A stretch of 64,000 nt of DNA from Halodesulfurarchaeum sp. HSR-GB. GTDB lineage: Archaea > Halobacteriota > Halobacteria > Halobacteriales > Halobacteriaceae. The stretch is from NCBI RefSeq assembly GCF_031432215.1, contig NZ_JAVKGN010000001.1:1479421-1543420 (forward strand), written 5' to 3'. The position numbers were made by a program, and so were the translations under genes. Below the pieces are notes generated by a model that worked only from the letters and a program-made list of their open reading frames with translations, was not told where the DNA came from and did no database searches. Numbering within the stretch: position 1 is the stretch's first letter; the number at the start of each line of letters is the position of its first letter. This document shows, one piece after another, positions 11,587 through 44,602 of this stretch.

Positions 11587-14040
11587 TCAGGGAAGTGAAA
11601 GCCCACCCGCGCTCTCCCAGACGACCACTACCGAGGGCAGCACCAGCACCGACGTGAGATACGAGTACACGATTGCGATGCCGGTGACAAAGCCGAACTG
11701 ACCGAGAATCGGTGTCACCGCGATGACCAACACTCCGATCCCGGTCGCGGTTGTGAGCATCGACCCGGTCAGGGCGCCGCCGGTCCCGAACACCGTCTCG
11801 TCCAGGGCCTCGTGGAGGTTCGTCCCGTCGTACTCGTCGGCGAACCGGTGGGTCATGTGTGCCGAGTAATCGATTCCGAGGCCGATCGCGATCGAGAGGA
11901 CGGTCGCCGTCATGGCGTTGAACGGGATCCCCAGAGCGCGCATCGTCCCGATGATGAACGACACCGTGAGGACGATCGGCACCAGATTGACGATCCCGAG
12001 GGTGGCACTTCCTTCGAGCACCCGATATATGAAAAGCAGGAAGATCGCGGTGAACCCGAGTGCGACGGCCAGACTCCTCACAGCCGAGTCCAGAATGGTG
12101 TCCGAAACCGCCTGAAACACGACGATCTGGCCAGTGGCCGTTGCCGAGAGCCGGTACTGGTCGGCCAAGGTCTTCGCGTCTGCAGAGATCTCTTTCTGTG
12201 AGGACTCGGCTTCGGTGTCATAGACGATCCGGGCCGAGCGGTAATCCTCGGTCAGGTACTGACTGGCCTCGGCGGCGTAGGGCGAGGCGAATAGTTCGTC
12301 GTAAATCGTCGTGAGATCATCATCCGGGACCCCGTCGTCGTTTCGATCGTTCCGTTCAACAAGCGCATCGAACTGTGGGTCGGCCGCGCGATAGTCGTCG
12401 ATGACGTCGATGATGCTTGTCGCGGCCGCCTGCCGGCCGTCCTGCAGGATCGCGTCCGGTGGGTCACGGTTCACGTGTTCGATCGACTGCAGCGCCGTGT
12501 CCCGTCGCATCGAATCCGAGACGTAGACAGTCACCGAGTCCCTGGCAGCACTCTCGAACTCGGCCTCCAGGAAGTTCAGATCGCGAGTCACCGTGTAGGT
12601 CTCCGGGGCGAAGGGCTCCGGGAGCGAGGCGAGATAGTCGGGGACCTCCTCGGGCGGGAGGAAGTCCTCCTCGGAGAACGAGGTGTCGATTCCCGTACCG
12701 TACGCGCCGGCTGCCAGCCCAGACACGAGTAACACGGCGAGGAAGATCCGGGGCCCTCGTCTGGCGATCACGACGCCCACGTCGAGAGCCGAGCCGAGGA
12801 CGCTCCCCTCACGGCCGATCGGTGCACTGGCGAAGGTCGGGAACCCGGTGCGCTCCCGATATCGATCGACCTCCAATTTGAGTGCCGGGAGGAAGATGCC
12901 GAAGATCAGGAAGGTGAAGATGATCCCGATGGCCGCGATCAGGCCGAAATCACGGAGCGGCGGCAGCGAACTGGTGAGATTCGCGGCGAACCCGATGACC
13001 GTCGAGCCAGTCACGATGAAGAAGGCGACGATGAGCTGGCGGGTCATGACGTCCATCGACTCGGCGATTCCCACGCCGGTCACCCGCTCTTCCCGATAGC
13101 GATTGACCGAATGGATGCCGAAGTCGATGCCGACCGCTAGCAACAGCGGCGGGACCGCCGTGAGCATCTGCGTGAAGGGGATCCCGGCCAGACCCATGAA
13201 CCCGAAGGTCCAGACGATCGTCATCACGAGTGCCAAAAGCCCCACCGCCAGATCGAGGGGGTCGCGATAGGCATAGATCAGGAACGTGACGATCAGGAGG
13301 ATCGCGGCGGGGATCACGAGGATGAGCGAGTCGAAAATCACGCTCGCGAATTCGGCGGAGATGATCCCGGTCCCGAAGACCCGGATGTCACCGCCGCCAG
13401 CCTCGACGACTCGCTGGGTTTCGAGCTGGATCGATTGGAGGGGACTGTCGCCGCTCGTGCCGGCCCCGCTTGCCAGTCCGGCCGGCACTTCGTGGGTGAT
13501 CACGGCGATCGTCGCTCCCGCGGTGGCCGACTCCCGGTTGAAGTCGGTACTCAAGATCCCGGTCAGTCCAGGCTGGGCAGTCGCTTCTCGAACGGCAGCA
13601 TCGATCTGCTTCGGTGTGGCCCGCTCGACGGCCCGGATCTGGTCCTCGACGGACCGCGCGCTCGGATCGAGCGTGGTGGCGATCGTACTAGCGGCACTCC
13701 GGGTCGCGGTAATGCGCAATTCAGTCCGATCTTCGAGCCGTTGCTGGGTTCGCAACATCGTCAGCAGCGCCGGCTTCGAGAGGGCGTTCTCCGAGACCTG
13801 TATCAGTTGAGTCGTCCCCTCGTCGGCTGCGAAAGCGGGACCGAACTCCCGGTTCACGTCCTGGAGGGCCGCTTCGGCATCGGTGCCCTCGGAAAACTGA
13901 CTCGTCCCGGTCTCGGTCGAGACGTTGCCCAGTCCGGCACTCATCAGGAGGGTAATGACCAGGAAGACGAGGATGACCGTCCTGGAGCGCTGGGAGACGA
14001 CCGCTGCGATCTGTTCGACGATCGCGTCGTGGTCCACCAT
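11587..14040 (-). CDS. RND-superfamily exporter (MMPL/SSD type)
   Basis: An 817-residue protein with the twofold RND layout. A single N-terminal helix precedes a large extracellular domain (about 35-220) and a five- to six-helix bundle containing GIDFGIHSVNRYREER. The pattern repeats, with a second extracellular domain (about 435-640) and a second bundle containing GLGIDYSAHMTHRFADEYDG. The paired Asp residues in these helix-4 motifs are the usual proton-relay positions. It lies 3 bp after the CARDB protein gene and divergent from a PadR regulator, a layout recurrent in archaea. Likely substrates are lipids or hydrophobic compounds; this is inference. Confidence 0.92.
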   Translation of the reverse strand: MVDHDAIVEQIAAVVSQRSRTVILVFLVITLLMSAGLGNVSTETGTSQFSEGTDAEAALQDVNREFGPAFAADEGTTQLIQVSENALSKPALLTMLRTQQRLEDRTELRITATRSAASTIATTLDPSARSVEDQIRAVERATPKQIDAAVREATAQPGLTGILSTDFNRESATAGATIAVITHEVPAGLASGAGTSGDSPLQSIQLETQRVVEAGGGDIRVFGTGIISAEFASVIFDSLILVIPAAILLIVTFLIYAYRDPLDLAVGLLALVMTIVWTFGFMGLAGIPFTQMLTAVPPLLLAVGIDFGIHSVNRYREERVTGVGIAESMDVMTRQLIVAFFIVTGSTVIGFAANLTSSLPPLRDFGLIAAIGIIFTFLIFGIFLPALKLEVDRYRERTGFPTFASAPIGREGSVLGSALDVGVVIARRGPRIFLAVLLVSGLAAGAYGTGIDTSFSEEDFLPPEEVPDYLASLPEPFAPETYTVTRDLNFLEAEFESAARDSVTVYVSDSMRRDTALQSIEHVNRDPPDAILQDGRQAAATSIIDVIDDYRAADPQFDALVERNDRNDDGVPDDDLTTIYDELFASPYAAEASQYLTEDYRSARIVYDTEAESSQKEISADAKTLADQYRLSATATGQIVVFQAVSDTILDSAVRSLAVALGFTAIFLLFIYRVLEGSATLGIVNLVPIVLTVSFIIGTMRALGIPFNAMTATVLSIAIGLGIDYSAHMTHRFADEYDGTNLHEALDETVFGTGGALTGSMLTTATGIGVLVIAVTPILGQFGFVTGIAIVYSYLTSVLVLPSVVVVWESAGGLSLP

Positions 14041-14043
14041 CGG

Positions 14044-15888
14044 TCAGCGACGGCGATACCAGTAGCCGCCACCGGCAAGCAGAGCGATTCCCACGAGGAC
14101 GGCGACGATCGGCAGGAAGCCCCCGCCCTCCTGTTCCGTGACGGTGACCGGAACCTGGACGGTTTCCGTGAGCTTCGTATCCCCGCCCTCCTCGTACTGC
14201 ACGTCCATCGACAGCGGATAGTCCTTCGTCAGCGCGCCCGCCCCCACGGCGACCTCGAAGGTCACCGTCGAGGATTCGCCCGGCTTGAGTGCGCTGATGT
14301 AGCCCTCGTCGTCATCGGCCGAGAGCGGGTCGTCCGCAAAGATCTTCGGGTTGACGTCGCTGACGGGCAACTCCCCGGTGTTGGTCAGTTCCACGGTGAT
14401 CTCCCCACTCTCGCCGGCCGCGACCGTGGCGTTCGTGGCCGTAATGTCGAACCGATCTTTCTGCGGTTCGATCGCCGTTCGAACGTTGTAGGGCCCCATC
14501 TCGAAGTCACGGTCGTCCTCCTCGTACTGGACCTGGAAGGAAAGCTGTCGGGGGATCGCTTCGGCGTTCGAGGAGACCTCGATCGGGTATCGGACCGTCG
14601 TGGACTCGTTTGCGGCCATTGCCCCGATCGCGTATTCGGTTTCCAGGGGATGGACGTTCTGTCCGGCCCCGGGCAGGCTGAGTACCAGGTCCTCGACGGC
14701 CGATCCGTTGTTGGTGACTGCGAGTTCGAGCACCCCTTCTTCGCCGACCCGGAGTGTCGAATCGGTCCGTTCGAGGACGAACCGATCTCGCTCGGACCCG
14801 ACCGGTGCCATGACAGTCGTCTCGCCGGTTCGCTGCAAGTTGCCGTCCGCGTCCGCATAGGAGAGCGCGAGCGAGAGTCGCTGGGGTGTTGGTTCGGCCG
14901 TGGGTGCGATCGTAATCGGCAGGGTCACGGTCCGGGTCTCACCGACGGGGATGGTTCCGACGCCATACTGGGACATCTCTAGTTGGACGGCCGGTCCGGT
15001 CTGTCCCAGTTCGAGGACTGCGTCTGTCATCTCTCGGGGCCCCGTGTTGCGCAGCGTTGCGACGACCTCGCCACGTTCACCGACCCGTAACGTGCTGTCC
15101 AGAGCGGTGACGTCGAACGACCGGGCCTCGGTGACGAGCACTTCTGCCGTGGCGGGGATCGCGGTCATATCGATTCCGTTGGGCTTCTCGTACTCGACCA
15201 CACTTTGAATCGCGTGCGTGCCGGGATTCGTTCCGGAAACTGCGGTGGCGTCGACAGTCACCGTTCGGGTCTCCCCCGGCTCCCACTCCGCGACGAACTG
15301 GGTTACCATCTCGGACTGGCCACCGACACGCAACCCAGTTCCCTGTGCGGTCGTCTGCACGCTCGCGTCGTGGGCCGTCTGGGTGCCGACGTTCTTGAGG
15401 TTCACTGCGAGTTCGTTCGTCCCGCCCGACGGGACAGTTCCGTTCACCGATTCCACGGCGAAGTGGGCCCGATCTTCGACGACGACCTCTGCGTCGACAG
15501 TTTTCCAGCCGGTGTTGTTGACGGGCCCGTACTCGTATTCGAGATCGATCTCAAGATCGTAGGTTCCCGGCTCGACATCTTCCGGGACTTCGACCGTGAA
15601 TGAACCGGTCACTGGCTGTCCGTAAGCAATCGGCTCGATGAATTTCGTGCCCGAACGAACGGTCATCGGGGTCGAACCGCTCTCCATTTCGGCGGTCACC
15701 ACCCGGGCCGGGGGTGCGTCATCGTCGTCGTTCGTGAACGTCACCACGACCTGTTGGGTCTGACCGGGCGCGACCGAAGGCTCGGAAACCGTCGCGTCGA
15801 TGTCGGGTTCGATCTGTGCTGCGACCGGAACTGAGGCGACAGTCAAACCGATAACGAGAACGAAAAGCAGGGGGAGAAGTCGTTTCAT
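14044..15888 (-). CDS. secreted CARDB/COG1361-type S-layer-like protein, partner of the RND exporter
   Basis: The start at 15888 gives a clean signal peptide (MKRLLPLLFVLVIGLTVASV); the 26 residues before it are not credible. About five Ig-like CARDB repeats follow, each with a version of VxxTNxG...DVxxxL (for example VTNNGSAVEDLVLSLPG and ELTNTGELPVSDVNPKIFAD). A C-terminal membrane anchor (FLPIVAVLVGIALLAGGGYW, then YRRR) closes the protein. Length 614 residues. It is 3 bp upstream of the RND exporter, so the two are translationally linked and probably form an envelope complex. The tail is not a PGF-CTERM. Confidence 0.87.
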   Translation of the reverse strand: MKRLLPLLFVLVIGLTVASVPVAAQIEPDIDATVSEPSVAPGQTQQVVVTFTNDDDDAPPARVVTAEMESGSTPMTVRSGTKFIEPIAYGQPVTGSFTVEVPEDVEPGTYDLEIDLEYEYGPVNNTGWKTVDAEVVVEDRAHFAVESVNGTVPSGGTNELAVNLKNVGTQTAHDASVQTTAQGTGLRVGGQSEMVTQFVAEWEPGETRTVTVDATAVSGTNPGTHAIQSVVEYEKPNGIDMTAIPATAEVLVTEARSFDVTALDSTLRVGERGEVVATLRNTGPREMTDAVLELGQTGPAVQLEMSQYGVGTIPVGETRTVTLPITIAPTAEPTPQRLSLALSYADADGNLQRTGETTVMAPVGSERDRFVLERTDSTLRVGEEGVLELAVTNNGSAVEDLVLSLPGAGQNVHPLETEYAIGAMAANESTTVRYPIEVSSNAEAIPRQLSFQVQYEEDDRDFEMGPYNVRTAIEPQKDRFDITATNATVAAGESGEITVELTNTGELPVSDVNPKIFADDPLSADDDEGYISALKPGESSTVTFEVAVGAGALTKDYPLSMDVQYEEGGDTKLTETVQVPVTVTEQEGGGFLPIVAVLVGIALLAGGGYWYRRR

Positions 15889-16154
15889 GGCTTGGAGTAG
15901 TTGTGAAACCTGTCGTGGCGAACGGGCATAAATCGTCGCATATCCACAACTTCGACCCGGCGTCAATCACTCCCGGCGATGGAATCAGTCGATATGCCCA
16001 GGTCCACGAACGTTGGGTCCGGCGCGGACGGGGACTATTTTCACCAAGACGACACGACTCCGAGTCGCAGTCGGCCGGTTTTCCCATCTCTACTGCGTAC
16101 AAACGTCGTTGGGCGACGATGTTAATAGGCTGTGCGACATATCTCGAAGCAAGG

Positions 16155-18573: not shown

Positions 18574-19241
18574 TGGTCGTCCTCGCATCCAAGGTGTATG
18601 TCCACGGCGGGGCCCGGGAACGGGCGCTTGACTCACTCGAATCGCTCGTCGGCAACGCTATCGGCGACCTCGACGTGGAGTTCGAGGTCGGACTCAGACA
18701 CGATGACTTTCCGACGGTGACCGTCGAGGGTCCCGACGCCGTCGTCGCCAGGAACCTTTTGCGGGAGGAGTGGGGCGAAATCGTGCCCGACCCCGAACCG
18801 GGCACCGTCGCGACGGGAACTCTCGAATCGTGGGACGAAGACGGCTTTACGCTTGATGCCGGTGACACGGTACGGATTCCGGCCACGGAGATCGACCTCG
18901 GCGGCGGCTCACCGTCACAGATCCGCAAGCGGTTCGGGCTGGTTCAACATCTTCCGATTCGCTATGAGGCGGGTGACACACCTCGAATCGCCGACGTGGA
19001 GCGTGATCGGCTGTACGACTGGCAGCGTGCAGAGACCGGGCGGGTCAACGTCAACAGCGCGACCCGGGCCGAAGTCCGTGCCACGGTGAACCGGGCCGGG
19101 CACGCCGGGGACATCATCACGGTCGAACGACTCGGCCTGCTCGAACAGAGCATCGTCTGCAAGTCGGGGACGGACCCGCCAGGCCTGCTCGCAAGCATCG
19201 GGTCGTACCTCGATTCGGAACTCCTCGCCGTCGTTCCATGA
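18573..19241 (+). CDS. DUF2110 family protein
   Basis: A 222-residue soluble protein, first base shared with the tfe stop. Family features include the N-terminal LASKVYVHGGARERALDSLE, the LPIRYEAG segment and a C-terminal domain around VNSATRAEVRATVNRAGHAG. DUF2110 proteins are archaeal and commonly coded beside tfe, so a link to transcription is likely but not shown. Its last four bases overlap the start of the following lipoprotein gene (ATGA). Confidence 0.85.
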   Translation: MVVLASKVYVHGGARERALDSLESLVGNAIGDLDVEFEVGLRHDDFPTVTVEGPDAVVARNLLREEWGEIVPDPEPGTVATGTLESWDEDGFTLDAGDTVRIPATEIDLGGGSPSQIRKRFGLVQHLPIRYEAGDTPRIADVERDRLYDWQRAETGRVNVNSATRAEVRATVNRAGHAGDIITVERLGLLEQSIVCKSGTDPPGLLASIGSYLDSELLAVVP

Positions 19242-19945
19242 GACGTCTCCTCGCCGCGCTCGCACTGGTCGTTCTGGTCGGTCTGGCGGGCTGTACCGGC
19301 GGGGTCGTCGATCAAAACGCGCTCGAAGAACCGGCGACCTACGACTGGGACAGTTCTGCGGAGGTGTCAGTCAACGTTACCGGTGGGAGCTATCAGTCGG
19401 TGACCGCCCTCGGGAACCAGTCGAACGTGAGTCTCTTCGGGCCCGGTGAGTTCGGCGGCGAATCCGCAATTCCCGTGTCCGCAGTTCAGTACCAGTACCC
19501 GAACGGGACGGTAGTGAACGCCTCCGCGGTCGAGGTGGCCGAACGGGACGACCGTACCGTCCTCGAAGCGCCTCGAAGCGGCGGGAAAATCGCCTACAGA
19601 GCGACAGTACAGTCCAATCGCCTCTTCCTTCCGGTGACCGTGAACGGCAGTTACGCCGTCACGCTGCCCGAAGGGACGGACGTGAGCTTGCCAGTCATCG
19701 GCCGGGCGACGCCGGGTGATTACGAGGCCGACCGAACTGGTGAGCGGGTAACTCTCACCTGGTCGAACCCGGAGACCCAGGTCATTACTGTCGAGTATTA
19801 TCAGGAGCGGAACCTCTACATCTTCGCCGGCCTGGTTGGCCTGCTTGGACTGGTCGCTGCCGCTGGCATGCTGTACTTCCGAACGCAGTTGCGGCAACTC
19901 GCGCGTCGCACCGGCGAGATCGGACCGGAAGACGGCCTAGAGTGA
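19238..19945 (+). CDS. membrane-anchored lipoprotein with C-terminal TM (DUF5803-like)
   Basis: A 235-residue protein with a bacterial-type lipobox at the N-terminus (LVVLVGLAGCTGG, Cys about residue 20). A beta-rich extracellular part with N-x-T sites follows, then a single C-terminal membrane span (YIFAGLVGLLGLVAAAGMLY) and a basic cytoplasmic tail. Function unknown. The overlap with DUF2110 and the shared strand place it in the tfe operon. Confidence 0.8.
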   Translation: MRRLLAALALVVLVGLAGCTGGVVDQNALEEPATYDWDSSAEVSVNVTGGSYQSVTALGNQSNVSLFGPGEFGGESAIPVSAVQYQYPNGTVVNASAVEVAERDDRTVLEAPRSGGKIAYRATVQSNRLFLPVTVNGSYAVTLPEGTDVSLPVIGRATPGDYEADRTGERVTLTWSNPETQVITVEYYQERNLYIFAGLVGLLGLVAAAGMLYFRTQLRQLARRTGEIGPEDGLE

Positions 19946-19951
19946 CCGAGT

Positions 19952-20656
19952 ATGACAGCGGAGACCGTTTCCGAATCGAAGACCGTCGCCCTGTTGACCG
20001 TCGGCGACGAGCTATTGGCGGGTGAGACGGAGAACACGAACGCGTCCTGGCTCGCACGGCGACTGCAGGATCGTGGTGCGAGCCTCCGACGGATCGTCGT
20101 CGTCCCCGACGAACTGACGGCGATCGCAGAAACGCTCTGCTCGCTTGTGGCCGAGCACGACGCGGTGATCGTCACTGGTGGGTTGGGACCGACCCACGAC
20201 GACGTGACGATGGAAGCCGTTGCACAGGCCTTCGACAGTGAGATGGAACCACATTCGGACGCGATCGAGTGGTTCGAGCATGAAACCGAGTATGCTATCC
20301 CGGACCTGGTCGAGGGCACGACCCATCTGCCGGCCGGCGCCGAGTTCCTTCCGAACCCGGAGGGAGTGGCCCCCGGTGCGAAAATCGAGTCTGTGTACGT
20401 GCTGCCCGGTGTCCCGCGCGAAATGAAGGCGATGTTCGAACTGATCGCGCCGACGTTCGACGGACCGACGGCCACGACGAAAGTACTCACGTCCGAGAAG
20501 CCCGAAAGCCAACTGGTCGATGTCCTCGCCGAGACGACCCGACGGTTCGACGTGCAGGTCGGGAGCTATCCCGACGAGATGGTCACGATCCGGATTCAGG
20601 GGACCAACACGAAAGCGGTGGAGTCGGCGGCCGCGTGGCTCGATTCGCAGCTGTAA
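19952..20656 (+). CDS. CinA N-terminal/MoaB-like molybdopterin-binding-fold protein
   Basis: A 234-residue protein with the MoCF_biosynth/CinA-N fold. It has LLTVGDELLAGETENTNASW at the N-terminus and the VIVTGGLGPTHDDVTMEAVA motif, with the GGxGPTxDD signature. In CinA this domain with its linker hydrolyses ADP-ribose; in MoaB/MogA the fold adenylates molybdopterin. The CinA C-terminal deamidase domain is absent, as usual for archaeal short forms. It is 6 bp after the lipoprotein gene. Confidence 0.88.
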   Translation: MTAETVSESKTVALLTVGDELLAGETENTNASWLARRLQDRGASLRRIVVVPDELTAIAETLCSLVAEHDAVIVTGGLGPTHDDVTMEAVAQAFDSEMEPHSDAIEWFEHETEYAIPDLVEGTTHLPAGAEFLPNPEGVAPGAKIESVYVLPGVPREMKAMFELIAPTFDGPTATTKVLTSEKPESQLVDVLAETTRRFDVQVGSYPDEMVTIRIQGTNTKAVESAAAWLDSQL

Positions 20657-24573: not shown

Positions 24574-25383
24574 TCAGGATGGTCGATCCGAGGCGATCGT
24601 ATTGATCTCGCCTTTCACAGCCGCCGCGTCGAAGTCGTGATCCGGGCGAATGTTGACGAAGTCGAGGAAGTCCACGGCTTGGAGCACGACTTCGATTCCG
24701 TACTCGGTTACGGCTCCATCGACCGCGTCGGCAGCTCCGACGAGGGGTTCCAGTGTCCCGAGTGCACACGCCAGATCGTAGGCCCGTGCCTGGGGGATCC
24801 CTCGTTTCCGGACGGCTGTCGCGTCGATGAAGTACACCTCGTCATCGAGAACGAGGACGTTCTCCGCCCGAAGATCGCCGTGTGTCAACTCGTTGTGATG
24901 CATGGCCGAGAGGGCCGCAAAGAGATCCGGAAGGACTTCTCGCACCCGGGCAGGTGAGAGCTCATCCAGCGTTTGGAACCCATCCAGATAGTCCAGAACG
25001 ACGACCCCCACATCTCCGACTTCGAAGGCTTCGATTGGGGCCGGCGCGTTGACACCCGCCGCCCGCATCTGTCTCGTCGCGTCGAGTTCGTGACGCGCCA
25101 TCGCACCCGGGTCCTCGAAGTGCTCGAAAAAGCCCTCGCTCCCGCTCGAAAACGCGCCGATGTTCCGCGCGCCGGTGAAAACAGCGTGCACGAACGCGTT
25201 CCGGGGTGTGATGATCTTGACGAACCACTGCCGGTCGACCACACAGGGGATCGACAGCCAGTTTTCGGCCTCGAGGAATTCGATCCTGACGTATTCCCGA
25301 TCGTAGCGACTGGCGAGTTCCTGGCCGACCGCTTCCAGGGTATCCCAGCCGACAGTTCCTCGAACCAATTCGCGAACGCTCAC
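24574..25383 (-). CDS. RIO1/Bud32-like atypical serine/threonine kinase
   Basis: The frame is open to 25599, but that start would overlap ribL, and the N-terminal 70 residues there look untranslated. A GTG at 25383 (VSVRELVRGTVGW) gives 269 residues and is preferred. Kinase features are the ATP-binding Lys (RQWFVKIITPR), the catalytic loop THGDLRAENVLV (HGDxxxxN) and the metal Asp in VYFIDATAV, as in RIO-type kinases. A substrate is not evident. It lies 46 bp downstream of ribL and may share its transcript. Confidence 0.82.
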   Translation of the reverse strand: MSVRELVRGTVGWDTLEAVGQELASRYDREYVRIEFLEAENWLSIPCVVDRQWFVKIITPRNAFVHAVFTGARNIGAFSSGSEGFFEHFEDPGAMARHELDATRQMRAAGVNAPAPIEAFEVGDVGVVVLDYLDGFQTLDELSPARVREVLPDLFAALSAMHHNELTHGDLRAENVLVLDDEVYFIDATAVRKRGIPQARAYDLACALGTLEPLVGAADAVDGAVTEYGIEVVLQAVDFLDFVNIRPDHDFDAAAVKGEINTIASDRPS

Positions 25384-25429
25384 GGACGAACTGACGAGGT
25401 GGGTTCCTAAAACGGTTTCCTGGAGCGGA

Positions 25430-25864
25430 CTACTCGGACCCCCGCTGTTCGAGGATCCGTTCGATGATGGCCCCCGTCGAGAGGATTTCCTCGTCGTATC
25501 GCGGTTCACGACCCGTGACACGGTCGACCCGGCAGTCGATTCCCCGTTCGGCGAGTGCCTCGCGAATCCCGTCGGCGTCGTGGTGTTGATCGAACCCAAG
25601 CGCGATCACGTCGGGGTCAATCTCCTCGATCGGGGCAAAGATGTCGGTCTCGTGGCCGACGTGGGCGACGTCGACCGTTTCGAGGGCTGCGATCACGTCC
25701 CGCCGCTGCCGGTTCGACAACACCGGCGGTTCCTTGTGAGTGACGTTCTGTCGGCGGGCGACGATGACGTGAAGCTCATCGCCCATGGCCTTTGCTTCCT
25801 GAAGATAGTGGAGATGACCGGGATGGACGATATCGAACGTTCCCTGAGCGACGACTCGTGTCAT
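25430..25864 (-). CDS. ribL: FAD synthase, archaeal RibL type
   Basis: A 144-residue cytidylyltransferase-fold protein with [20 protein letters not shown] (HxGH nucleotide motif) and [20 protein letters not shown], followed by [11 protein letters not shown]. This matches archaeal RibL, which adenylylates FMN to FAD and has no fused riboflavin kinase. A glycerol-3-phosphate-type cytidylyltransferase is the main alternative. It is first in a probable two-gene unit with the RIO-like kinase. Confidence 0.88.
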
Positions 25865-26112
25865 GCTATGGCAATTTCCCCCTCATTGATAATCACGGCG
25901 TGGTCCGGCTGCTCGGCCGCCCCAGTCGTGATTTCGATACCGGAGCGGTATCGGACATGACGCGGTCTTGTAGGCGGGCCTTGCTAAGCGTACCGATTGA
26001 AGCGTGGAACCTCGAGCCCGATGTCCTTCCAGTCGGAGCCGCCAAACTGTCTCGGGGCCAGGATATCATGACATAGTATTAAGAAATAGCTGCGCCAAGA
26101 TTGAGTCGTGGT

Positions 26113-26982
26113 ATGATACCAATTCAACTCCGGTTCGCCGTCGAACCGTACGTACCGCTCCTATTGACCGCTCTCACGAGGGTTTTTCTGTTCCTGGTCG
26201 TCTTCGGGCTGCTGTATTGGCTGGGTAAACCCATCGTGACTCGGATGGTCCGATCGGCACTCGAGCAACGCGGGTTCGAAGAGACCCTCATCTCCCTCGC
26301 GGTTAGCGTGGCCAGCGGGGTCACAGTGGTATTCGCGATCGCGATCGCCGCGACCGTGGCCGGTTTCGGTGTCGTGCTCGCCGCGTTCGCGACTCTGGCT
26401 GGCGCCCTCGCCCTGGCTGTTGGGTTTGCGGCCCGGGATCTCATCGCCAACTTCGTCGCGGGGATTTTCATCCTCCAGGACAAGCCGTTCGTCGTCGGGG
26501 ACTGGATCGAGTGGAACGACAAAAGTGCCGTCGTTCGGGACATCGAGCTCCGGGTGACGAAACTGGACACCTTCGATAACGAGCTGGTCACGGTCCCGAA
26601 CAGCGAACTCGCTGGGAACGCCGTCTTCAACAACGTGGCGAACGACCGGCGCCGAATCGCAGTCGGTTTCGGGATCGGGTATGGCGACGATATTCAGGAA
26701 GCCCGTGCAGCTATCCTGGAGGAAGCTGCACAGATCGACGCCGTTCTCCAGGATCCGGAACCCAGTGCTCCGGTCGTAGAACTCGGAGACTCAGCCGTCG
26801 TTTTGTCGGGGCGGGTCTGGATCGATCCGCAGGAACACGGGTACGGTGGGGTGCGAGCGCAGTTCGTCGAGGCGGTCAAGGAGCGGTTCGACGAGGCGGG
26901 GATCGACATGCCCTATCCGACGAACGAACTTACCGGCGAGATCGACGTCAACGACGTCGGGGCTCCAGCCCCGAGTGACTGA
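26113..26982 (+). CDS. MscS-family mechanosensitive channel (complete)
   Basis: A 289-residue protein; the ATG at 26113 is preferred over a TTG 12 bases earlier. Membrane helices include YVPLLLTALTRVFLFLVVFG and the pore helix region VVLAAFATLAGALALAVGFA, followed by the MscS beta domain (DKPFVVGDWIEWND, VPNSELAGNAVFNN). The C-terminal domain ends with YPTNELTGE. It is a paralogue of the cut gene at 1-752 but has an N-terminal half adapted differently. A TATTAAGA box lies about 38 bp upstream. Confidence 0.93.
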   Translation: MIPIQLRFAVEPYVPLLLTALTRVFLFLVVFGLLYWLGKPIVTRMVRSALEQRGFEETLISLAVSVASGVTVVFAIAIAATVAGFGVVLAAFATLAGALALAVGFAARDLIANFVAGIFILQDKPFVVGDWIEWNDKSAVVRDIELRVTKLDTFDNELVTVPNSELAGNAVFNNVANDRRRIAVGFGIGYGDDIQEARAAILEEAAQIDAVLQDPEPSAPVVELGDSAVVLSGRVWIDPQEHGYGGVRAQFVEAVKERFDEAGIDMPYPTNELTGEIDVNDVGAPAPSD

Positions 26983-27160
26983 TCGAGTTTCGGTCCTCGT
27001 GGGGCATGTGATCGACCAGAGTAGTTCCCAGAGGGCGATCAAGAAAGCACGCACGAGAATTGCGCGGTAATAGATGTGCTCTCTGTCTGCCCCCTTCCTG
27101 GCCGAACGTTTCACTTCCCGGAAATTTTTGTACCCATCCTGCCGTTTCTTCCTGTAGAAC

Positions 27161-28246
27161 GTGCCACATGATGACTCGCGGTTGCTGACGTGGATAAGAG
27201 AGTCCGGCCCCGTCCTGTTTGGAGCGCTCGCCGCGCTTGGACTCTTCCTTTTTGCCGTACAGTTGCTTGGGGCCTCGACCGAAGCCGCGGCGGGCCCCCT
27301 GGAACGACTCTTCAGACGAATCGTCAGCGGTGACGGTTCGGCACTCGGCGTGAGCTGGCTTGCAACGTACGTGGTGACAAACGGGTCGATCGTCGCTGCG
27401 ATCTCGGTGTCACTCTTCGACGTATCAATTATTAGCAGTACGGAACTGTTTCTGATGGTGATTGGGTCGCGATTGGGGAGTGCGGCGATCGTCCTGTTTG
27501 TCGGGGCGATGGATTATTTCCAGAAACATCGGTATTCGCTGGGTCATGCAACGGAACTGGGGCTTTTGACCTTCATCGTCACGCACTCAATATACCTCCC
27601 GGCGACGGTGTTGGGCTACCTCGTATTGCCATCGCTGGAACACTCGGTCGGCGGTCTCATCGTCGGGAGCGTCACCGGATTTCAGTTGTTGGTCGTCTTT
27701 CAGCCCATTACTCGCGCCGTCGTTTCGTCGCTCGGCGTCTGGCCGGGGCTCGCTATCGCTGTCGGGGTCCTCTTTGCGAGTCTCACGTTGTTCGATCGGA
27801 CACTCGGTCGGGTCAATACCACGTGGCTCCGTGAGGGACTTTTCGGTCGGTTTCGGAACCGCTGGGTGGCCTTCGGCATCGGCCTGTTGGTTACTGCTGT
27901 TACTACCAGCGTGGCGTTCTCCCTGGGTGTGATCGTCCCTCTGTACAATCGAGGCTACGTGAAACGCAGGGAGATCGTGCCGTATATCCTCGGTGCGAAT
28001 ATTGGGACGTTTGCCGACACCCTCGCGGTAGCTATTTTGCTGGAATCACCGGTGGCGCTACTGGTCATCATGACCGTTTTGGGTGCGGGAAGCCTCCTAA
28101 TCACTGGGTTCCTGGTGTGGTATCCAGCGTACTACCGGCCCGTCGCGAATGTCCAAAACCATCTTGAAACTGATCGACGGGTGCTCGGAGCGTTTTTACT
28201 TGCTTTACTCCTCGTGCCCGTTTTGCTGGTGGTTCTGCCGATGTAG
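27161..28246 (+). CDS. Na/Pi-cotransporter-like membrane protein, divergent
   Basis: A 361-residue protein with about nine membrane helices, from a GTG start at 27161. The N-terminal FGALAALGLFLFAVQLLGAS and the second-repeat segment VPYILGANIGTFADTLAVAI are characteristic of the Na/Pi cotransporter (NptA/PNaS) family. The QSSS sequence that binds phosphate and Na+ in both repeats is replaced by VTNGS in the first and VAFSL in the second. It may therefore carry another solute or be regulatory. The downstream Usp gene (51 bp away) suggests an old transporter-Usp pair. Confidence 0.78.
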   Translation: MPHDDSRLLTWIRESGPVLFGALAALGLFLFAVQLLGASTEAAAGPLERLFRRIVSGDGSALGVSWLATYVVTNGSIVAAISVSLFDVSIISSTELFLMVIGSRLGSAAIVLFVGAMDYFQKHRYSLGHATELGLLTFIVTHSIYLPATVLGYLVLPSLEHSVGGLIVGSVTGFQLLVVFQPITRAVVSSLGVWPGLAIAVGVLFASLTLFDRTLGRVNTTWLREGLFGRFRNRWVAFGIGLLVTAVTTSVAFSLGVIVPLYNRGYVKRREIVPYILGANIGTFADTLAVAILLESPVALLVIMTVLGAGSLLITGFLVWYPAYYRPVANVQNHLETDRRVLGAFLLALLLVPVLLVVLPM

Positions 28247-28297: not shown

Positions 28298-28726
28298 ATG
28301 ACCAGTATTGAACGCGTGCTCGTGGCTTTCGATGGGACACAACTTTCCCGGTAGGCCCTCGAGCATGCCCTCGACGTGTATCCCGAGGCATCGATTAGAG
28401 TGCTTCACGTGATCGATTACGTAGAAGAGAGTTACAGTGCCAAACTGTTGGTCGGGTCCGAACGGTTGCGCGAGCGGGCCCATGAACGCTCCGAGCGGTT
28501 ACTCGAACAGGCAGAAGAAATCGCGAACGTAAAGAATCGGTCCATTAGCACCACGACTACAATTGGGCCGGCTCCCCGGGAGATTATCGAGTTCGCAGAC
28601 AGCCACGACATCGATGTCATCGTTCTCGGGAGTCACGGTCGATCGGGCCTTTCACGGGTGCTTCTCGGATCGGTAGCTGATACGGTGACACGCCGTGCCT
28701 CGTCGGCAGTCTGTGTCGTTCGATAA
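28298..28726 (+). pseudogene. universal stress protein (UspA family) interrupted by an in-frame TAG
   Basis: From the ATG at 28298 the frame reads MTSIERVLVAFDGTQLSR, then TAG at 28352-28354, then ALEHALDVYPEASIRVLHVI and on to a full Usp C-terminus (GSHGRSGLSRVLLGSVADTV, the ATP-binding G-2x-G-9x-GS motif). The stop falls exactly where family members have an ordinary residue before the ALEHAL helix, so a single base change explains it. Translation could restart at GTG 28376, but that product would lack the first beta strand and nucleotide-binding Asp. Sequencing error, recent inactivation or readthrough are the alternatives. Confidence 0.85.
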
Positions 28727-28781
28727 TTTGTGTTGCCGCTTCGATTTAGCGGATCCGGGCCGGCCCCAGTAATTTCAGGGG

Positions 28782-29048
28782 TCAGGCCGGTTCGGGCGTC
28801 GATTCGCCCGTCTGTTCCTCGGCCGTCGTGTTTAGTCGGTACAGGCTCTGCCTTGCATCTCGCAGGTACACGTCCTCGGTGATGTAGTTACACTCGTCGA
28901 GTCTGTCAAGGGCATAGCGGACCGTCCGGGCGGAGAGGTTCGTCTCCTCGACCAGGGCTTTCTGCGTGAGCGGGGCGTCGTACTCCAGGACCGTGTAGAC
29001 CAGCTTTGCGCTCGGCGGGAGGTCGTTCAGACAGGGTTCGGGTGCCAT
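28782..29048 (-). CDS. small winged-helix (MarR-like) regulator, paralogue A
   Basis: The ATG at 29048 gives an 88-residue one-domain protein: CLNDLPPSAKLVYTVLEYDA, PLTQKALVEETNLSARTVRY, ALDRLDECNYITEDVYLRDA and RQSLYRLN. This type is common and well conserved in haloarchaea. It follows the sensor kinase gene by 55 bp on the same strand but has its own promoter-like box (29068-29079), shared with its paralogue at 32955. Regulon unknown. Confidence 0.85.
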   Translation of the reverse strand: MAPEPCLNDLPPSAKLVYTVLEYDAPLTQKALVEETNLSARTVRYALDRLDECNYITEDVYLRDARQSLYRLNTTAEEQTGESTPEPA

Positions 29049-29067
29049 ATTCGGACAAAATTGCCGG

Positions 29068-29079
29068 TTATGGGTAAGC
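29068..29079 (-). promoter_or_regulatory. promoter box GCTTACCCATAA of winged-helix paralogue A
   Basis: The box begins 31 bp before the ATG at 29048. The same sequence with one change lies at the same distance from the ATG of paralogue B (32924-32935). It occupies the TATA position of a leaderless transcript. Confidence 0.55.
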
Positions 29080-29103
29080 AGCGAGCCCAATTGTGTGGGC
29101 ACC

Positions 29104-31392
29104 TCAGGAGCGATCCACATCGACTCCCGTGATCTCGAATCGAGCGCCGCCGGATTCGCTCTCGGTGACGGTTAGCGTCCAGTCATGTGCGTTCGTGACT
29201 TGCTCGACGATACTCAATCCGAGGCCGGTCCCGTCAGCCGCAGTCGAATACCCGATTTCGGTGATCGACTCTCGCTCGGGCGGTGGAATGCCTCGACCGT
29301 CGTCAGCGACGTAGAACCCGTCCTCGAGATTTCCGACGGTCACCGTGACAGCGGGTCCAGCGTGTTCGACGGCGTTCCCCAGGAGGTTCTCGAACAACTG
29401 TCGAAGCCGGCTGCGATCGGCGGCGATCGTTTTGTGTGTCGTAACCTCGATCGATGCCTCCCTGGTTTCGATGGTGTCCCAGCTCTGTTTGACTACCGTC
29501 TCGATATCGATGGCCTGCATCTCCCCGACGGAGTCGCCTCGACGAGCGAGTTCCAGGAGGTCCTCGATCAGGTCGTTCATGCGGGTCAGTGACTGTTCGA
29601 TCGGATCGAGGTGATCGCTCTCACAGTCCGCTTCGAGTAGTTCCAGTCGGCCCTCCGCGACCATGAGTGGGTTCTTTAGGTCGTGGCTCACGACCGATGC
29701 GAAGCGTTCGAGTCGTTTCTCGCGGGTTTTTCGTTCCGTGATGTCTCTTGCGACGCTCAAAATCGCCTGTTCGCCCCTGTAAGTGATCAGGCTGGAACTG
29801 ATTTCGACGGGAATCTCCCGGCCCGACTTCGTCCGGTGTTTCGTCTCGAAAACCTGTTGTTCGTCCTCGGGCATCCCCTCGATCAACGCGGCGATCTCAT
29901 CGTCGGACAGTCCCGCGTCGATGTCTTCGGGTGACATGTCCCGAAGTTCGGTTTCGGTATAGCCGAGTGTCTCCACTGCGGTGTCGTTCGCGGTGATGAA
30001 CTGGCCGTCCTGGCTGATTACCCAGACGCTGTCGTTCATCCCGTTGATCAGTTCCTCGTACTCGTCCCGAGCTTGCTCCAGTGCTCGTTCTCGCTCTTTC
30101 TGGGCCGAAATGTCCGTGTACCACACGTAGGAACCCTCGATCCCCGCCTCGTCCGCCCCGTACGGAATCAGTTGAAAGAGAAACTCCCGTGGCCCAGCTT
30201 TCGTCAGTCGAGTCACTTCCCCCGTGATCGATTCCCCGGATTCGGCTCGTTCTCTCCGCTCGACGTGGGTCTCGATCTCGTCTTCGGGGATGAGAACCTC
30301 GTTGACGGGTTCACCGATCAGATCTTCACGTGGATACCCGAACACGTCCTCGAATGCCGAATTCACGTCGGTAAAGCGATGTGTGTCGTCCTCGGCTGGC
30401 CGTGAGGCCGCAATCGGTGTCGGGGCGTTCTCGAAAAGGGCCGTCCGTCGGTCACGTTCCTCTCGCAACCTCTCCTGGATGGTTGCAGCGTGAATCGCGT
30501 GGCCGATGTCAGTTCCGAGTTCGGAAAGCAATTCTCGGGCCGGTCCTTCGAACGGCCACTGGAAGTCCGAATAGAGCACGAGCACGCCATACGTTCTGGA
30601 TTCGGTGGCCAGCGGAACTGCCGCCATTGCCTCGAATCCCCGTTTTGAGGCGGCGGTCTCCCACGGTCCACCCGGATCAACTCCACCGGTTCGAACTTCG
30701 ATCGTCCCTGTCCCGATAGCATCCTGGACGAGGCCCGCTCCGCTCGGGATCGACTCGGCGTCCGGGTCTGTCTCGGGAATCTGGATCGATTGACAGTCCC
30801 CACCGCTCGAACGGGGGCGGAGCTCGCGGGCATTCTCGACTGTCTCACCGGTCCAGACCACGTCGAACGGACTGTCGGCAGCCATCGATTCACAGATCCC
30901 CTCACTGATTTCCCGACGGGTTTGGGCTCGAATTAGCTGCTGATTGATTTCCCGTCGGATGGCTCGCAACCTGTCGAGTCGCTGTCGGTTGTCTTCGGCT
31001 CGTCGCTCGGCGACGGCGTTTTCGATCCGAGTGGCGAGTAACCCGTAATCGTCCGTGCCTGAACGTTTTTGCACGTAGGTGTTCGGCCCGGCTGTGAACG
31101 CCTCTTCGGCGACTGCTTCGGTCCCGTCATCGGTGTACAGGACGAAGGGAAGTTCGTCGTCCACGTTTCTGATGTCACGAAGCAACGCAAGTCCGTTCGA
31201 TTCGGAGAGAGCATACACAGAGACCACACAGTCAAATTCGGTCCGTGAGAGTGCGTCCAGCGCTTCGGAGACGGTTGTCGCGATTGCAGTCTCGAAGGAT
31301 GTGTCCGTCTGGGCGAGGCCAGCCACAGTTCGAGTCGCTAGATCACGGTTAGCGACGAGAAGGACACGGATGGGGTGAGACGTGTCATCCAT
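29104..31392 (-). CDS. sensor histidine kinase: pseudo-receiver, GAF, two PAS, HisKA, HATPase
   Basis: The ATG at 31392 (MDDTSHPIRVLLVANRD) starts a 762-residue soluble kinase. Residues 8-120 form a receiver-like domain lacking the phospho-acceptor Asp (Val59 in CVVSVYALS) and the acidic pair, but keeping Thr (LYTDDG) and Lys (YVQKRSG). A GAF domain follows (about 150-310), then PAS at about 325-440 (FENAPTPIAASRP to WYTDISAQ) and PAS at about 450-560 (MNDSVWVISQDGQFITANDT to VARDITERK). The HisKA H-box is RFASVVSHDLKNPLMVAEGR. The HATPase has NLLGNAVEHAG, DDGRGIPP and TGLGLSIVEQ. No receiver partner is adjacent. It probably senses a cytoplasmic redox or ligand signal. Confidence 0.92.
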   Translation of the reverse strand: MDDTSHPIRVLLVANRDLATRTVAGLAQTDTSFETAIATTVSEALDALSRTEFDCVVSVYALSESNGLALLRDIRNVDDELPFVLYTDDGTEAVAEEAFTAGPNTYVQKRSGTDDYGLLATRIENAVAERRAEDNRQRLDRLRAIRREINQQLIRAQTRREISEGICESMAADSPFDVVWTGETVENARELRPRSSGGDCQSIQIPETDPDAESIPSGAGLVQDAIGTGTIEVRTGGVDPGGPWETAASKRGFEAMAAVPLATESRTYGVLVLYSDFQWPFEGPARELLSELGTDIGHAIHAATIQERLREERDRRTALFENAPTPIAASRPAEDDTHRFTDVNSAFEDVFGYPREDLIGEPVNEVLIPEDEIETHVERRERAESGESITGEVTRLTKAGPREFLFQLIPYGADEAGIEGSYVWYTDISAQKERERALEQARDEYEELINGMNDSVWVISQDGQFITANDTAVETLGYTETELRDMSPEDIDAGLSDDEIAALIEGMPEDEQQVFETKHRTKSGREIPVEISSSLITYRGEQAILSVARDITERKTREKRLERFASVVSHDLKNPLMVAEGRLELLEADCESDHLDPIEQSLTRMNDLIEDLLELARRGDSVGEMQAIDIETVVKQSWDTIETREASIEVTTHKTIAADRSRLRQLFENLLGNAVEHAGPAVTVTVGNLEDGFYVADDGRGIPPPERESITEIGYSTAADGTGLGLSIVEQVTNAHDWTLTVTESESGGARFEITGVDVDRS

Positions 31393-42481: not shown

Positions 42482-43096
42482 TTACTCGACCCGAGAGCTG
42501 ACCTTCTCGAAGTTCTCGGCGACGTCGTCCCAGTCGATTACCTCGAAGAAGGCATCGACGAAGTCGCCGCGGGCGGGCCCGTAGTCGAAGTAGTAGGAGT
42601 GCTCCCACACGTCGAGGGCCAGGATGGGGTGAGCACCCCACAGCGCGCCGTCGTTGTGCTTCTGGACGGCCAGGTTGCGAAGCTGTTTTGCGACTGGGTC
42701 ATAGACCAGCAGCGCCCAGCCACCGGCTGAATACCCGGCTGCCTCTTCGAATTCCTGCCGCCAGGCCTCATACGAGCCGAAGTCCTCCTCGATTCGCTCT
42801 CGCAGTGCGCCTTCGGGTTCGCCGCCACCGTTCGGGGACATGTTGTCCCAGAACATGGTGTGGAGATAGTGGCCCGAGCCGTTGTGGCTCACCGATCTGA
42901 GGGCTGCCTGCGTGCCGTGGGTCTCTCCGGTTTCGCGGGCCTCGGCGAGGGCCTCCTCGGCACTGTCCAGGCCGTTGACATAGCCCTGATGGTGGGTATC
43001 GTGGTGCCACTCGAGTACCTGTTCGGAGATATGTGGTTCGAGGGCGTCGTAGTCGTAAGGCAACTCCGGCAGTTCGGGGTGCGAACGCTCGCTCAT
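42482..43096 (-). CDS. sod: superoxide dismutase, Fe/Mn type
   Basis: The start at 43096 gives a 204-residue protein of standard length. Metal ligands align with known SODs at His31 (EWHHDTHHQGYV), His80 (HYLHTMFW), Asp163 and His167 (ALDVWEHSYY). Haloarchaeal members are usually manganese enzymes. It removes superoxide in the cytoplasm. Confidence 0.96.
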   Translation of the reverse strand: MSERSHPELPELPYDYDALEPHISEQVLEWHHDTHHQGYVNGLDSAEEALAEARETGETHGTQAALRSVSHNGSGHYLHTMFWDNMSPNGGGEPEGALRERIEEDFGSYEAWRQEFEEAAGYSAGGWALLVYDPVAKQLRNLAVQKHNDGALWGAHPILALDVWEHSYYFDYGPARGDFVDAFFEVIDWDDVAENFEKVSSRVE

Positions 43097-43201
43097 TGGG
43101 AATACACCACATGAGTCAATGGTTGGAATCCGGATAAACGTTTGTGAGGGGGCACACAGGGACCCTTTACAAACTGGCATGGAGCCCTTGGTGGGTGCAA
43201 T

Positions 43202-44602
43202 TCACCCGCCGCGGGCCCGTTCGAACATCTCGATCGTCTGTTCGCGGCGCTCGGCGTGGTCTACGATCGGATCCGGATAGTCGGGGGCCAACTCGTCCCG
43301 ACGGTCCGTGTCGACGTCCGGCCAGGAATGAATGGTTTCGGGATCAACGTTCTGAAGCTCCGGTACGTAGGTTTTGATGTACTCGGCATCGGGGTCGTGA
43401 CGCTCGCCCTGGGTCATCGGGTTGAAGATCCGGAAGTACGGCTGGGCGTCGGTTCCGGTCGAGGCAGCCCACTGCCACCCCCCGACGTCGTTTGCGGTCT
43501 CGTGATCCAGGAGTTGTTTGCGGAACCAGGCATACCCTTCTCGCCAATCGATCTGAAGGTCTTTCGTCAGAAACGAGGCGACGATCATCCGTAACCGGTT
43601 ATGCATGAACGATTCTGCCTGTAACTGACGCATGCCGGCGTCGACGATCGGATAGCCCGTTTCGCCCTGGGTCCAGGCCCGAAACGCCGCCGGGTCCGCC
43701 CGCCACTCGATCGGGTGCTCGAAGTCCTTGAAGTTCTCCGTGACCGTCTCGGGATGGGCGTCGAGTACCTGTATGTAGAAATCCCGCCATGCAAGCTGAC
43801 GGCGATACTCCTCGACAGAATCGATGGCTGTCTCTGTGGGCGCCGTCGCATCTGCCTCGTCGACGGCGTTCCGGAGTTCCCGAATCCCGAGCAGACCAAA
43901 GGCGAGGTCCTGGGAGAGTCGCGAGGTGCCGTCTGCGGCCGGGAGATCGCGGGTTTCGGCATACTCGTAAATCGGACCGTCCAGAAATCGCTCCATTCGA
44001 TCTTCTGCAGCCTGCCGACCAGCGGGGAGTGGGAGGCTGTCGACTGGCGAGGCCTGTATCTCGTCAATATCACGCGCCTGCCGGTCGGAAAATACCTCCG
44101 GCGACGGCTGGGGAGCGGGTGCGGGAACGTCCCGATCGATCCACTTCTTGTAGTAATACGAAAACACCGAGTAGTGATCCCCAGCCGAAGTCAGGATCGA
44201 ACCGGGTTCGTAGAGGGTCATGTCCGAAATTTCGAGTGTCGACACCTCCTCGGGAAGACGGTCTCGAACGGTCCCGTCTCGCTTTGTCGCCAATTTGGAG
44301 TAATCCGTGTTCCAGACGACTCGGTCGGCCTCCGTCTCCGCGGCCAATTCGGGGAGCGCAGTCCGAGGATCGCCCTGGCGGATTTCCAGATCAGTCCCGA
44401 GCGTGCGATAGGTTTGCTGTAACGACGCCAGTGATGCATGATAGAACCCACGTCGAGCGGGGCCGGCATACGTCTGGACTGCTGGATCGACGACAACGAC
44501 AGGAATGACCTGGCCGTACTCACTCGCCGCCTCCAGGCCACGATTGTCGACGGTGCGGAGATCGCGACGATGCCAGAACAGCGTGGGTCCCGAGTCGGTC
44601 AT
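43202..44602 (-). CDS. phr: deoxyribodipyrimidine photolyase (CPD class I)
   Basis: A 466-residue flavoprotein. The N-terminal photolyase domain (LFWHRRDLRTVDNRGLEAAS) and the C-terminal FAD domain with SRLSQDLAFGLLGIRELRNA, QLAWRDFYIQVLDAHPET, TGYPIVDAGMRQLQAESFMH, NRLRMIVASFLTKDLQIDWR and DVGGWQWAASTGTDAQPYFR are complete, including the Trp electron-transfer chain. It repairs UV-induced cyclobutane pyrimidine dimers in light. Confidence 0.96.
   Translation of the reverse strand: MTDSGPTLFWHRRDLRTVDNRGLEAASEYGQVIPVVVVDPAVQTYAGPARRGFYHASLASLQQTYRTLGTDLEIRQGDPRTALPELAAETEADRVVWNTDYSKLATKRDGTVRDRLPEEVSTLEISDMTLYEPGSILTSAGDHYSVFSYYYKKWIDRDVPAPAPQPSPEVFSDRQARDIDEIQASPVDSLPLPAGRQAAEDRMERFLDGPIYEYAETRDLPAADGTSRLSQDLAFGLLGIRELRNAVDEADATAPTETAIDSVEEYRRQLAWRDFYIQVLDAHPETVTENFKDFEHPIEWRADPAAFRAWTQGETGYPIVDAGMRQLQAESFMHNRLRMIVASFLTKDLQIDWREGYAWFRKQLLDHETANDVGGWQWAASTGTDAQPYFRIFNPMTQGERHDPDAEYIKTYVPELQNVDPETIHSWPDVDTDRRDELAPDYPDPIVDHAERREQTIEMFERARGG

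Follow-up and report, generated by a model that had tools for sequence, protein, structure and literature searches.

The locus

The window (the whole 64,000-nucleotide stretch of Halodesulfurarchaeum sp. HSR-GB analysed here) carries a universal stress protein (Usp) gene directly behind a Na+/Pi-cotransporter-family carrier gene (Table 1). Read from its ATG, the Usp frame translates as MTSIERVLVAFDGTQLSR, a stop, ALEHALDVYPEAS...GSHGRSGLSRVLLGSVADTVTRRASSAVCVVR and a final stop; the internal TAG at codon 19 is followed by 123 open codons, and the next stop comes only at 28724-28726. The initial annotation had described a Usp gene split by a single in-frame amber codon, with its ATP-binding motif within 28625-28720, and both observations held: the frame has one internal TAG, and the complete G-2X-G-9X-G-S motif lies inside that interval. 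When read through with X at the stop, the frame scored 103.5 bits against the Pfam Usp model (PF00582, cut-off 24 bits), and the portion after the TAG scored 85.5 bits on its own. It is this homology that identifies the stretch as a gene, because an open run of 123 codons is by itself unremarkable in a GC-rich window (P about 0.11 by chance).

Table 1. Features of the carrier-Usp locus, in coordinates of the window
Feature	Position	Strand	Basis or content
Na+/Pi-cotransporter-family carrier (PF02690), 361 aa, upstream partner in same-strand pair	27161..28246	+	Pfam match, synteny
Usp (PF00582) gene with one in-frame TAG, frame otherwise intact	28298..28726	+	translation, Pfam match
In-frame TAG, codon 19	28352..28354	+	AAG (Lys) in the 3 closest orthologues, Arg codons in the other 7 syntenic ones
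Possible restart ORF from GTG 28376, 116 aa, without strand 1 and Asp	28376..28726	+	ORF reading
G-2X-G-9X-G-S nucleotide-binding motif, intact, 3' of the TAG	28628..28672	+	translation, homologue alignment
Degraded C-terminal motif SAVC (VPVT in 10 syntenic orthologues)	28703..28714	+	orthologue comparison
941-bp tract, 100% identical to G001	28310..29250		TAG, rest of Usp, winged-helix gene, end of histidine kinase gene

As in other members of the UspA/Usp family, the match to PF00582 runs over the whole length and includes the glycine motif; the frame differs from the family in being cut at codon 19 and in having alanine in place of an invariant proline. Its best match in the PDB was the MJ0577-type ATP-binding Usp (1MJH, E 1.5e-11). 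Nucleotide-binding residues are present on both sides of the TAG: an Asp at codon 12 before it, conserved in 58 of the 59 homologues that have a residue at that position, and the glycine motif after it, whose G114 and G124 are kept in 61/61 homologues. The two would stand on the same polypeptide only if the TAG were read through. The genome itself contains 22 Usp matches, and this copy is the only one with an internal stop. Among the approximately 150 best-scoring Usp matches listed from a search of 394 genomes, a stop was found only here and in the counterpart from the same genus.

A conserved carrier-Usp gene pair

The neighbour of the Usp gene had been called a divergent Na/Pi-type carrier. 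The carrier assignment stands, whereas the orientation does not: both genes lie on the plus strand, with the carrier ending 51 bp upstream of the Usp. We found the same order, carrier and then Usp on one strand, in 10 further haloarchaeal loci, including loci on a plasmid of Natribaculum breve and in Salinigranum salinum, and all 10 of these syntenic Usps, which come from outside the genus, are uninterrupted. Loci L110, L111, L120, L121 and L124-L130 carry the conserved PF02690-Usp pair (ten haloarchaeal loci). At the site of the TAG, a change from AAG would require a single base substitution. The more distant Usps that we examined (below about 48% identity) had no adjoining carrier match, so that the carrier-linked Usps look like a distinct subfamily tied to the PF02690 carrier, with a signature around VLHVIDYVEESYSAK. 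A match in genome G002 (L027/L057) was rejected as an orthologue; it is 47% identical, and its 3.4-kb contig shows no adjacent match to the carrier.

Haloarchaeal Usp genes that adjoin transporters of other families (APC, FNT, SSS) are described in passages of PMC3102087. Here too the Usp directly follows a transporter gene, but its neighbour is a Na/Pi-type carrier of family PF02690, a pairing that those passages do not mention. Our literature search found no paper on this Usp gene. As to the carrier, its dN/dS between the window's genome (G000) and the same-genus genome G001 was 0.243, the highest of any gene for which the comparison gave a measurable value; with low dS and a small comparison, this hints weakly at relaxed constraint or at adaptive change.

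An identical tract common to two genomes

Genome G001, from the same genus, has the identical TAG at the same Usp codon. The window and its G001 counterpart differ by 8.5% over 60.9 kb, and yet the 941-bp tract is 100% identical between them, synonymous and intergenic sites included. Identity falls away sharply at both ends: the 100 bp preceding the tract contain 10 differences and the 100 bp following it 19. No other identical run exceeds 310 bp, and among the remaining non-overlapping 941-bp windows the lowest count of differences is 12. Across the Usp gene as a whole, the two genomes show one synonymous difference. Besides the broken Usp, the tract contains a winged-helix gene (28782-29120) and the 3' end of a PAS/GAF histidine kinase gene.

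Because the identity spans synonymous and intergenic sites, selection on protein cannot be its cause, and 941 bp at 100% against 8.5% elsewhere indicates that the broken allele probably moved recently between lineages by recombination. We infer that the simplest cause of the tract is a recent exchange between these lineages by homologous recombination. With the G001 copy of the TAG inside the exchanged tract, the two genomes represent neither two independent losses nor conservation of the codon; the shared TAG is one event and so carries no evidence on selection since the lesion. We therefore rejected the possibility that the TAG has been kept by selection since the species split. Conservation of the TAG in orthologues, which the initial annotation had raised, is thus true only in the trivial case of the G001 copy, and it is false for the syntenic loci outside the genus, 10/10 of which encode Lys or Arg at that site.

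A further observation concerns the region 25001-28000, where divergence to G001 is generally lowered: most 500-bp bins lie at about 1.6-4%, and 26501-27000 is the exception. This suggests further exchanged segments beside the main tract.

Age and possible decay of the Usp gene

We fitted a codon model to 11 sequences with the TAG codon masked. The branch leading to the window Usp had an omega of 0.041, compared to 0.091 elsewhere, and omega = 1 was rejected (p = 2.6e-9); since dS is saturated, these values say only that the gene was constrained for most of the branch. The carrier, used as a control, had a similar omega (0.059). Strong constraint over most of the branch implies that the lesion is young relative to it, consistent with the recent origin that had been proposed initially. 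On constraint since the lesion nothing can be learned from an identical tract. Furthermore, a neutral frame at 8.5% divergence would acquire no further stops with P = 0.34, and hence the open frame is no proof of function.

At the C-terminus, the VPVT of the 10 syntenic orthologues has become SAVC in the window Usp. Pro 137, invariant in 61/61 homologues, is lost, as is the hydrophobic residue at position 136 that nearly all of the 61 homologues possess. Judged from this alignment, the lost proline is one sign of decay. Departures from conserved columns are ordinary overall, the window frame ranking 21st of 61.

Alternative readings of the TAG

Amber readthrough had been offered as one explanation of the split frame: near-cognate decoding or an undetected suppressor tRNA would yield some full-length Usp. 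The well-kept downstream frame is compatible with this, and the predicted fold of the RNA around the TAG is slightly more stable than those of shuffled sequences, although as a stimulating structure it is weak (z = -1.64). The search for decoding components argues against it. No CUA anticodon was found among the 44 tRNA genes detected in the genome; ARAGORN assigned anticodons to 41 of them, and manual reading of the remaining three, which bear introns, gave Arg-TCT, Met-CAT and Gln-TTG. This list is incomplete: it lacks tRNAs for Trp, Pro-GGG, Pro-CGG and Ser-CGA. A pattern for intron-less CUA tRNAs gave 4 hits in the genome, the same chance level as in the reversed control, and ARAGORN accepted none. 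The best score for pyrrolysyl-tRNA synthetase (PylS) was 25 bits against a cut-off of 178, which only one control genome exceeded, and a pyrrolysine reading was rejected on this ground. In the window, from which stop usage was estimated, TAG ends 13/56 predicted genes and is an ordinary stop. The only archaeal cases of stop readthrough listed in a 2021 review (PMC8211752) are selenocysteine and pyrrolysine. Pyrrolysine recoding likewise involves an in-frame UAG in an otherwise open gene, but here no PylS over the cut-off and no CUA tRNA were found, and the gene is not a methylamine methyltransferase. We consider readthrough very unlikely. More improbable still is a variant in which the genus decodes this amber codon often enough to matter although it has no dedicated suppressor tRNA, so that the shared TAG serves as an off-switch and still lets a little full-length Usp form beside the carrier.

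Alternatively, translation may restart at GTG 28376, only 7 codons past the stop, or at a later GTG, and produce an N-terminally shortened Usp of about 116 residues with a role of its own, such as that of a non-ATP-binding partner in a dimer. The Usp score of the post-TAG frame speaks for such a product. However, it would be deprived of strand 1 and, as the initial annotation had stated, of the nucleotide-binding Asp, which is nearly universal; in addition, no Shine-Dalgarno-like sequence precedes GTG 28376, the invariant C-terminal proline is lost, and no relative has a Usp of such shorter form among the matches listed. We regard this reading as unlikely. A sequencing or assembly error had also been suggested, and single-base lesions are typical of errors, but the same TAG in a second genome, with flanks that differ by 8.5% and one synonymous difference within the gene, makes this explanation hardly credible: it would need cross-contamination of both assemblies, confined to 941 bp.

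Elsewhere in the window, candidates for other stop-interrupted genes were rejected, as the three longest in-frame extensions past a TGA proved to be neighbouring genes in the same frame. These ordinary pairs, named by eye, are a CARDB-like gene and an RND exporter (11587-15966, minus strand), a membrane protein and a competence-damage-type gene (19238-20656, plus strand), and a photolyase and a superoxide dismutase (42482-44602, minus strand).

Discussion

The locus is probably a carrier-linked Usp gene that a nonsense mutation recently turned into a pseudogene and that spread between two species by recombination. One substitution, most probably from the Lys codon AAG to TAG, would have inactivated the Usp of a conserved carrier-Usp pair. 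Translation would then end after 18 residues, presumably with no functional nucleotide-binding Usp as the result. Recombination would subsequently have carried the broken allele, within a tract of at least 941 bp, from one haloarchaeal species to a related one, and too little time would have elapsed since then for more stops to arise in the frame. In the same genomic setting, none of the 10 carrier-Usp loci has a stop. A broken allele in a short identical tract of diverged genomes is likewise what is seen when homologous recombination spreads nonsense pseudogenes among prokaryote species, and we see no notable difference here. This would be ordinary recent gene loss. Usp control of the carrier may have been lost with it, as the initial annotation had proposed; with 21 other Usp matches in the genome, absence of this Usp may be tolerated.

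As read from the two genomes, the locus offers a clean example of recent gene loss, in which a short exchanged tract appears to reveal a broken allele on its way from one haloarchaeal species to another. It further suggests that a Na/Pi-type carrier and one Usp subfamily form a conserved pair. The window would thereby provide a natural Usp-less carrier, and its comparison with the intact pairs may reveal the role of the Usp.
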